From Oligoflexales bacterium (lineage in GTDB: Bacteria > Bdellovibrionota_B > Oligoflexia > Oligoflexales > RGVZ01): a stretch of 64,000 nt of DNA. The position numbers and the translations under genes are program-made. Shown piece after piece: positions 45,282 through 48,168 of this stretch. The DNA is taken from the NCBI GenBank assembly GCA_947494335.1, contig CANLUT010000001.1, forward strand, positions 725,649 to 789,648. The letters run 5' to 3'. The number at the start of each line of letters is the position of its first letter. Position 1 is the stretch's first letter. The notes below the pieces were generated by a model, which saw only the letters and a list, made by a program, of their open reading frames with translations, did no database searches and was not told where the DNA came from.

Positions 45282-45782
45282 TTAGCTGACTGGTGTTTTT
45301 CGTTCAATCGTGAAATGAGCCAAAATTAAAGTAATGACGCCAAGCATGATCGCGACATCAGCGATATTGAAAATATTTGTCGCAAACCAACTGCCCGGTA
45401 TGCCAACCCATAGGAAGTCGACAACGTAGCCGTGAGTTGCTCGATCGATCAGGTTTCCAACTCCGCCAGCAATGACCAGGCTATAGCAGGCTACCATGTA
45501 GTTTTTGAGTTCATTGGAGGTTACGGTGTACCATGCAAGACCGCCAAGAAAGACGAATGGTAGGACGGTTAATAGCCAAAAACGCCAAGTATCACTAAGC
45601 GTCGATCCCATGCTTCCCCAAGCTCCAGTGTTCTCCGCGTAAATCAGCAGTGCGTGGCCTCCAAAATAGGAGATTGAGGGCACGTCTTTGAGTGCTGCAA
45701 TAGCCCAGGACTTTGTCCATTGGTCGATGCCGATAATAAGGATGGAAATAACGGTAAGGAGGAGGACGCGGCGATAGGTCAT
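45282..45782 (-). CDS. lspA: lipoprotein signal peptidase
   Basis: LspA is the aspartic peptidase that cuts lipoprotein signal peptides before the lipid-modified Cys. The family phrases are all present: DQWTKSWAI, NTGAWGS, GGVGNLIDRATHGYVVDFL (first Asp) and FNIADVAIMLG (second Asp), with four membrane helices. ATG 45782 is preferred to the GTG at 45800. At least four lipoproteins in the window would be substrates. Confidence 0.95.
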   Translation of the reverse strand: MTYRRVLLLTVISILIIGIDQWTKSWAIAALKDVPSISYFGGHALLIYAENTGAWGSMGSTLSDTWRFWLLTVLPFVFLGGLAWYTVTSNELKNYMVACYSLVIAGGVGNLIDRATHGYVVDFLWVGIPGSWFATNIFNIADVAIMLGVITLILAHFTIERKTPVS

Positions 45783-45934
45783 GTCAGAATCAGGCCTCAC
45801 GGTAACACGAACAGATTAAGTGACAATTCCGGGAATTTTATCAGTTGGTTAAGGAATTTGGTATCTTAAACATCCCGGAGTGGTTGAAAAAACGATAAAA
45901 AACAGGGGCATGAGCCATGTGTTCAGGGGGTTGC

Positions 45935-45961
45935 TAAAGTTTTTGGTTGGACTCCCGATAA
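45935..45961 (+). promoter_or_regulatory. near-perfect sigma-28 (FliA) promoter
   Basis: TAAAGTTT is followed after exactly 11 bases by CCCGATAA: 15 of 16 positions agree with the consensus TAAAGTTT-N11-GCCGATAA. The predicted start of transcription falls near 45968, about 48 bases before the ATG at 46016. Confidence 0.72.
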
Positions 45962-45974
45962 AGCTTTTAAGGTA

Positions 45975-45987
45975 GGGGCGAAGCCCC
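45975..45987 (+). promoter_or_regulatory. GC hairpin in the leader of the 54-residue gene
   Basis: GGGGC-GAA-GCCCC forms a five-pair stem close to the predicted 5' end of the transcript. It is 14 bases from the ribosome site and does not cover it, so it may stabilise the message. Confidence 0.5.
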
Positions 45988-46015
45988 GGAAACCATATAG
46001 GAGGAGGGATTTACC

Positions 46016-46180
46016 ATGGGTGACCGTAGTCCAAAGGACAAAATGAAGAAACAAAAGCAGCATGATAAGGATGCCGTCAAACAGCAGCAGCACAAGCAGG
46101 AAAACATGATGAAGAATCGTCGTGATCAGGGTAAGCCTGAAGACCAGCAGGGTGGAGATCAGTATAAAAAAGCTGGTTGA
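46016..46180 (+). CDS. 54-residue hydrophilic protein (MGDRSP type)
   Basis: This gene is below the ORF track cut-off. ATG 46016 follows an excellent ribosome site (aggaggaggg). The product begins MGDRSPKDKMKKQKQHDKDA and is made almost wholly of Lys, Gln, Asp, Glu, Asn and His, without hydrophobic residues, so it is likely disordered. Similar short proteins starting MGDRSP occur in diverse proteobacteria and are unassigned as far as I know. It has its own sigma-28-like promoter and its own terminator, so it is a monocistronic unit. Confidence 0.85.
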   Translation: MGDRSPKDKMKKQKQHDKDAVKQQQHKQENMMKNRRDQGKPEDQQGGDQYKKAG

Positions 46181-46208
46181 TCAGATCCGGTTATTTGTTT
46201 CAGCGAAT

Positions 46209-46242
46209 ACGGGCGGCAGCGATGCCGCCCGTTAGTGTTTTT
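46209..46242 (+). terminator. intrinsic terminator after the 54-residue gene
   Basis: GGGCGGCA pairs with TGCCGCCC around GCGA; flanking AC and GT extend the stem to ten pairs. It is followed by TTAGTGTTTTT. It lies 29 bases after the stop. Confidence 0.85.
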
Positions 46243-46374
46243 AGCCACGTCAAGTCGCGGAAGATGCAGCTTTTATTCTTGGTTCGAGTGGTCGTTCGTG
46301 GTAGGACTTCGAGTCCGAATGAAGCCGATGTGATTAATAAGCAGGCAGACCCTGTGATAGACCTGAGACGTTGA

Positions 46375-48168
46375 ATGACCAAAGACGCCGAAGTCAAACA
46401 TACAAAAAGCCGCGCCCCCTCCAAGTCTGGAGAGCGCGATAACAAGCGACCTCCGTCCAAGCGCCCAGTTAAGCCCCGCAAAAGTGCTCGACCACTGCCG
46501 CCAGGCGGTGTTGGTGGTGGTCTTGATCCCAAGTTAAAAAAGATCGTGCACGAAACACTCGAGCGCTCGACGTTCATTGTTTTCGACATTGAGACCACTG
46601 GCGGTAATCCGGAACGTAACGGGATCACTGAAATTTGTGCATTAAAAATCAGGGACGGACAGATTGTTGACCGTTTCTACAGTCTGGTGAATCCCATGAT
46701 CAGCATTCCTCCGATCGTGCGTCGCATGACCGGAATCACCAATCAGATGGTCGCCGAAGCGCCAGTCATTCATGAAATTTTTCCTGATTTCATTGATTTT
46801 ATTGCGGACCACATCCTCGTCAGTCACAACACAATCGGGGATCTGATATTCCTTCGCTACTTCGCTAAAGAGACTGTAAAGCAGGATCTCAACAACTTTT
46901 TCCTGTGCACACACCTTCTCGTGGAAAAACTTTGTCCGGAGGCCCCGGATAAGTCACTTAAGGGCCTAAGCCGCCATTTTAATTTGTCCGGTGATAGCTT
47001 TCATCGCGCTGAGGCAGATGCGGTTCAGACATGGGAGTTGTTCAAAGTTCTTGAGCGAAAACTGCGTGACCGCGGCATTTCTAAGGTCGAACAGGCGATA
47101 AGGTTGCAGGGGGACTTGGATTCATCTCTGAGGCTCGGTTGGGCGATCGGGGCTGATAAACTACGGGGTCTTCCTCAAGGGGCTGGAGTTTTTTACCTCT
47201 ATGACCACGAGCGCCGTTTACTTCTTGTAAGTGGAGCCGTCTCTGTTCAGCGGGACGTAGAAAAGTTACAGCATTACGATTTGATTCCACGCCAGATTTT
47301 AAAGCTTGTTTTGCGCAGTTATGATCTTCAGGCTTCCCGCACTCCAAGTATCTTTGGAGCATTGATGGCAGAGTGTGACGGACTCGATAAACACAAATTA
47401 TCTGTGGATCCGAGTATTCTTCATCAGCGTCTTATCAACGTAATTGGTATCTACGAGGACCGCGGAGGTGGGCTGCGTTTGGCCGTCGGTCCTATGGAAG
47501 AGGGTATCGTTCAAGTCTTTGGCCCGGTCAAAGACAGGAAACGAGCAACTGAGTTTGTAGATGAGTTGGCTGCGACACTGGGTGAGAAGAATACCCGAAA
47601 CGGAATGTTGCTGGCTCAGGAACATAGATCACTTGTGGCAGGGGCTCTATCAGGCACACTACCTGAGCTGTTACGCAAAGTGGAAAAGAACCTTTGGTCA
47701 TTGAGAATCATGTTCTGGCGCAAGAAGGCCATGGAAAATCAGCGCGATCGTTTGGAGAAAATTCAGAATCTTCTCAATATGGACGGTGTTGGCGCCTCAC
47801 CTTGGCGCAACGTTTTGCAGCTGCACGGCCTGATTGTTGTCCCTGATGAGTCAACCTCAACCTGGGTGCTTCATCCGATTGTATGTGGTAAGCCGCAGCC
47901 GTCACATCAGGTTCGTGGTGACTGGAGACAAAGGCTGACGCAAGGTGGATTTGGTAAGCGCATTGTGAGTCGCATCTACAAGGAAATGCGGGCGCCTAAG
48001 GATGCTCCAGCTATGACCAAGATAGAAGTGGCAAGATTGAATGCAGTTCTCTGGTGGCTACAACACGGTAAAGGTCGGGATGGCGGGACTTTTGTTGATA
48101 TCGAGCAACTGGAAGCCATGCTCAAGAGCAAACAAGGGGAGCTCGCCCCGGAAGGAATCGTTGAATGA
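46375..48168 (+). CDS. DnaQ-type exonuclease fused to a degenerate GIY-YIG/UvrC-like region
   Basis: After a basic, disordered N-terminal 45 residues, a DEDDh 3'-5' exonuclease domain is complete: FDIETTG (Asp71, Glu73), SHNTIGDL (Asp156) and HRAEADA (His210, Asp215). It is followed at residue 266 by LPQGAGVFYLYD and LLLVSGAVSVQRDV, which align with the GIY-YIG start of UvrC/Cho but lack the GIY tyrosine and the YVG motif, so that nuclease is probably inactive. The last 280 residues are unassigned helical sequence. Its stop overlaps the znuA start by four bases. The ribosome site is weak. Confidence 0.85.
   Translation: MTKDAEVKHTKSRAPSKSGERDNKRPPSKRPVKPRKSARPLPPGGVGGGLDPKLKKIVHETLERSTFIVFDIETTGGNPERNGITEICALKIRDGQIVDRFYSLVNPMISIPPIVRRMTGITNQMVAEAPVIHEIFPDFIDFIADHILVSHNTIGDLIFLRYFAKETVKQDLNNFFLCTHLLVEKLCPEAPDKSLKGLSRHFNLSGDSFHRAEADAVQTWELFKVLERKLRDRGISKVEQAIRLQGDLDSSLRLGWAIGADKLRGLPQGAGVFYLYDHERRLLLVSGAVSVQRDVEKLQHYDLIPRQILKLVLRSYDLQASRTPSIFGALMAECDGLDKHKLSVDPSILHQRLINVIGIYEDRGGGLRLAVGPMEEGIVQVFGPVKDRKRATEFVDELAATLGEKNTRNGMLLAQEHRSLVAGALSGTLPELLRKVEKNLWSLRIMFWRKKAMENQRDRLEKIQNLLNMDGVGASPWRNVLQLHGLIVVPDESTSTWVLHPIVCGKPQPSHQVRGDWRQRLTQGGFGKRIVSRIYKEMRAPKDAPAMTKIEVARLNAVLWWLQHGKGRDGGTFVDIEQLEAMLKSKQGELAPEGIVE

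Follow-up and report, generated by a model that had tools for sequence, protein, structure and literature searches.

Which sigma factor transcribes a 54-codon reading frame lying between a divergent lspA-like gene and an exonuclease gene, and what might its small, highly charged product do? A preliminary description of the window (the whole stretch of 64,000 nucleotides analyzed here, from an Oligoflexales bacterium) had proposed a FliA promoter matching the consensus at 15 of 16 positions with an N11 spacer, followed by a leader hairpin, a strong ribosome site, a 54-residue ORF, and a terminator of its own. All of these elements were located, flanked by two conserved neighbors:

45935..45961 (+): sigma-28 (FliA)-type promoter; −35 TAAAGTTT, 11-bp spacer, −10 CCCGATAA; 15/16 match
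45975..45987 (+): leader hairpin GGGGC-GAA-GCCCC, near the predicted mRNA 5′ end
45999..46008 (+): ribosome-binding site AGGAGGAGGG, read directly from the sequence
46016..46180 (+): ORF of 54 aa, MGDRSPKDKMKKQKQHDKDAVKQQQHKQENMMKNRRDQGKPEDQQGGDQYKKAG, MGD[KR][SN]PK family, QH subtype; ATG at 46016, stop codon ending at 46180
46209..46242 (+): intrinsic terminator; 10-bp stem at 46209–46232, then T-rich tail TAGTGTTTTT to 46242
45282..45800 (−): divergent upstream neighbor, signal peptidase II (lspA)-like by sequence resemblance only; syntenic
46375..48168 (+): downstream neighbor, exonuclease-domain (DnaQ-like) protein, named by sequence resemblance only; syntenic in 5/5 genus members with the locus

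The explanation of the locus as a whole that we favor, with moderate confidence, is a monocistronic FliA (sigma-28) transcription unit encoding a soluble accessory protein. FliA-bound RNA polymerase would begin transcription just 3′ of 45961, yielding a short mRNA that carries a small 5′ hairpin and a strong ribosome site, would be translated to a 54-residue soluble protein, and would end at its own terminator.

Sigma-28 sites in the genome and among relatives

Candidate promoters were scored against the E. coli FliA consensus TAAAGTTT-N11-GCCGATAA at 16 positions. A scan of the whole 3.34-Mb genome retrieved two sites with ≤1 mismatch, one of them the promoter in the window, and 15 sites with ≤2 mismatches; arithmetic with equal base use predicts ∼0.08 and ∼1.8 sites, respectively, by chance. 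At ≤3 mismatches, 93 FliA sites were found versus 51 for a reversed control pattern. No sigma-70-like promoter passed the scan in 45800–46400. The only other one-mismatch site (G000:C1:1097900-1097926) precedes a 94-aa protein without a Pfam match, a candidate for another uncharacterized FliA target. Several other sites with ≤2 mismatches lie in or near genes that have no obvious motility link and offer few functional clues.

Absence of a FliA gene had been named as an observation that would speak against sigma-28 control. The gene is present (G000:C2:233983, 273 bits against a curated cutoff of 189.6) in a cluster ordered fliR-flhB-flhA-flhF-flhG(MinD-like)-fliA. Eight flagellin genes are encoded in the same genome. 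Within the genus, three orthologue groups of flagellin genes display an TAAAGTTT-N11-nCGA element at a fixed distance from their start codons (∼80, ∼52, and ∼61 nt), and no clear sigma-28 site was seen for the other flagellin groups of the genus. The site in the window is a better match than every flagellin site seen.

The promoter is also retained upstream of the orthologous ORFs. Across five genomes of the genus, the element scored 15/16, 14/16, 14/16 (spacer 12), 13/16 (spacer 12), and 12/16, and the AAGTT and CCGAT blocks are invariant in the upstream alignment. Markov-resampled upstream regions reached the observed scores at frequencies of <0.0005, 0.0005, <0.0005, 0.005, and 0.017 (2000 trials, spacers 11 and 12 both allowed), with none of the 2000 attaining the score of 15 found in the window; a score restricted to spacer 11 misses two relatives with spacer 12 (G005, and G003 in part). 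The proposal of sigma-28 control is thus well supported by FliA beside flhF/flhG, by the flagellin motif, and by a promoter kept in five genus members.

Outside the genus, the suggestion that the same promoter might precede homologues fared less evenly. The sister genus encodes a QH-type relative of 59–60 aa in four genomes, and all four place TCAAG-N14-CCCGATC, with a diverged spacer, at a constant distance of 23 nt from the start codon; scoring was adjusted after these sites were seen, and they count as supporting evidence only. Among more distant QH-type relatives, one (G044) displays a 12/16 site 47 nt upstream and another (G033) has no upstream sigma-28 site. The promoter accordingly precedes homologues in the genus, does so weakly in the sister genus and G044, and is missing for most family members and for a second paralogue in the same genome.

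Of 52 FliA sites in E. coli, 30 fall within genes, most of them without detectable RNA (PMC4183435). Because so many such sites are intragenic and silent, a consensus match alone is not proof of a promoter. The site in the window lies between genes, a short way from a start codon, and is conserved; its intergenic place and conservation answer this objection in part. Transcription of the gene by FliA in the swimming phase is likely, and the 54-residue protein is probably made when cells swim. The consensus and spacing are those of the E. coli class 3 sigma-28 genes (PMC4183435), but the product, unlike theirs, belongs to neither the flagellar nor the chemotaxis proteins and matches no known family.

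A closer parallel is the regulon of Bdellovibrio bacteriovorus, which belongs to a related lineage. There, 66% of attack-phase promoters carry TTAAG-N16-CCGATA, and FliA, proposed as a global attack-phase regulator, appears to run most of that program, flagellar and nonflagellar alike (PMC3627812). The promoter type is the same (TAAAG-N15-CCGATA here, with N16 in two relatives), and both systems involve nonflagellar, uncharacterized FliA genes and a swimming phase. In the present genus FliA control is predicted from sequence, and the predatory lifestyle is that of Bdellovibrio. By analogy, the Bdellovibrio work suggests a reading of FliA control broader than motility.

Coding status and the MGD[KR][SN]PK family

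The ORF is encoded in five genus genomes (G000 and G002–G005), in each case between the divergent lspA-like gene and the exonuclease gene, and the other four proteins are 54–74% identical to that of the window. A sixth genus member, G001, is without the ORF; since the orthologous exonuclease gene is also missing there, this absence may be an assembly gap. In all 10 pairwise comparisons of the five members, pS is 0.67–1.00 (near saturation) versus a pN of 0.16–0.35. Because synonymous sites are near saturation and nonsynonymous differences are few, the frame is selected as a protein; judged by these substitution rates, the 54-codon ORF is a real gene under clear purifying selection.

The N-terminus, MGD[K/R][S/N]PKxKxK, defines a family that we name MGD[KR][SN]PK. 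An alignment of 20 sequences displays invariant M1, G2, D3, P6, K7, and K11, with the rest variable and lysine-rich; the protein of the window shares these invariant residues, the family length of ∼40–60 aa, and the lysine-rich composition. Profile searches retrieved the family from 22 genomes of the class and also from a second, distant bacterial family whose genomes reach 16 Mb; 13 of the 60 genomes sampled there encode it, in the form of MGDKSPK proteins of 37–45 aa (L132, L135–L146). Because such proteins occur in this distant, large-genomed family, the MGD[KR][SN]PK proteins are, as judged from these matches, not confined to the Oligoflexia class of the window's genome; alphaproteobacterial members presumably exist as well. 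Family members typically possess their own ribosome site, and a terminator-like hairpin often follows the gene. A scan of genome contigs for the short motifs matched 448 stretches, only 6 of which were confirmed.

Neither Pfam, NCBIfam, PHROGs, nor PDB returned a match of meaningful score to the protein, and a text search of PubMed Central open-access articles for the strings MGDKSPK and MGDRSPK returned no paper. Phage and plasmid records searched at the protein level yielded nothing, with low-complexity masking by BLAST as the probable cause, and viral contigs held no match to a degenerate DNA pattern representing the N-terminus. Gene neighborhoods of other family members revealed no shared partner beyond close relatives. 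The spread in the class and in the distant family, together with the lack of a curated-library match, bears out the earlier statement that MGDRSP-type proteins are widespread but unassigned. Proteins of 40–60 residues are poorly covered by annotation, and this family, common to a distant bacterial family and absent from the curated libraries searched, gains a firm regulatory clue in the form of conserved sigma-28 control. The locus is a well-supported candidate sigma-28 target whose protein belongs to an undescribed small-protein family.

A second paralogue is encoded elsewhere in the genome:

G000:C5:105689-105823 (L118:1501-1635): second paralogue, 45 aa, MGDRSPKDKVKQQKAKEVEKAKMAQAMQKAKEEKAGNNPKAMKAG

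Like the gene in the window, it encodes a small, lysine-rich protein with an MGDRSPKDKxK start and has its own ribosome site; a terminator-like hairpin is also present. The differences are its length of 45 aa, a composition rich in alanine and glutamate, the lack of a QH segment, and the lack of an upstream sigma-28 site. Because this shorter second copy lies outside sigma-28 control, the QH-rich copy is most likely the one adapted to the motile or dispersal phase. The shorter paralogue is found in G001 and G003 (L115, L120) between pyrF-like and gamma-glutamyltransferase-like genes (named by resemblance), a neighborhood different from that of the gene in the window.

Possible roles of the protein

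With a GRAVY of −2.45, 15 K+R, and 9 D+E in 54 residues, the protein is nearly the "all-polar" product that had been described. The accompanying claim of disorder stands for part of the chain: AlphaFold2, supplied with a six-sequence alignment, predicts a loose, low-confidence tail but also one confident helix over residues 6–38 (mean pLDDT of 92 for residues 11–20 and 89 for residues 21–30). Models of this kind may contain helices that fold only in the bound state, and disorder is neither proved nor excluded by this predicted helix.

Within the favored reading, the conserved N-terminal ∼11 residues would provide the docking contact with a conserved housekeeping partner, and the charged helix (6–38) and the KKAG tail would form a soluble polyampholyte arm. 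On this view, the protein would not be a part of the flagellum; it would instead serve a core machine as an accessory linked to growth state. The docking mechanism taken by itself, which derives from the conservation pattern, is put forward tentatively. The partner is unlikely to be one restricted to flagellated cells, because the N-terminus is kept in family members, and in a paralogue, that have no sigma-28 site; a role confined to the flagellum is unlikely as well. The ribosome site makes high abundance plausible. More broadly, and as a speculative extension, the MGD[KR][SN]PK proteins could be an undescribed, widespread class docking on a core machine by way of a short N-terminal motif, a class that lineages re-tune through paralogues under lifestyle-specific sigma factors, here with one copy run by FliA for swimming and another serving other conditions. 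The hitherto unassigned family becomes testable through swimming cells, a fliA mutant, and the MGDxSPK residues, with the paralogue as a control.

The preliminary description had suggested a chaperone-like or ribosome-associated factor; that the protein binds ribosomes or RNA during the motile phase is a possible, if doubtful, alternative. Small size, lysine richness, and spread beyond the class would be in keeping with a universal partner, for instance the ribosome, but no match to a known ribosome-associated family or solved structure was obtained, and simple RNA binding is made less likely by the acidic residues that are numerous among the lysines.

Rather unlikely, in our estimate, is a protective hydrophilin- or LEA-like protein that shields the contents of starved, nongrowing swimmers with no specific partner. 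The protein resembles these groups in being small, strongly hydrophilic, charged, and glycine-containing, and the KAKE-rich stretch of the paralogue and the single charged helix are also reminiscent of them. A high glycine content and a high hydrophilicity define the hydrophilins (PMC4190154). The GRAVY values of the five orthologues, −2.15 to −2.64, agree with the second part of this definition. Glycine content, in contrast, lies above the hydrophilin threshold of >6% in two orthologues (9.3 and 7.3%) and below it in the others (5.8, 3.8, and 4.0%), and is therefore not a conserved trait of the family. An invariant N-terminal motif would be unexpected for a partnerless filler, and no LEA family match was found.

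Placement in the FliA regulon with the flagellins could also point to a flagellum-specific part, such as an export chaperone or a FlgM-like anti-sigma factor; FlgM is likewise small and largely disordered. This reading is improbable given that the same N-terminus occurs in members without a sigma-28 site, including the second paralogue, that neither Pfam nor NCBIfam gives a match to the FlgM family, and that the gene lies beside lspA and the exonuclease gene, away from the flagellar cluster.

The transcript and its leader

That the transcript acts mainly as a sigma-28-dependent small RNA, with the ORF secondary, is the most improbable reading: although such RNAs are known (PMC10578931), FliA promoters precede some Bdellovibrio attack-phase small RNAs (PMC3627812), and the unit is short (∼280 nt) with a leader hairpin and a terminator, the protein is kept while synonymous sites are near saturation, the ribosome site is strong, the window holds no Rfam match, and the leader hairpins keep their place rather than their sequence.

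Taken alone, the leader hairpin of the window is ordinary, as 4% of shuffles of the first 42 nt fold as well. All five genus leaders nevertheless fold into a short GC-rich hairpin shortly downstream of the predicted start, in a similar place and with a different sequence in each. The fractions of shuffles folding as well are 0.04, 0.21, 0.08, 0.10, and 0.003 in the five genomes, with the strongest fold in G004. Together, the five leaders suggest a conserved 5′ hairpin, which perhaps protects the mRNA end. Hairpins are also present at that place in the four flagellin leaders that were folded. One flagellin group of the genus (L063, L073, L074, L075) carries a TTCCA-GGG-TGGAA-type hairpin directly after its sigma-28 site, kept in four genomes.
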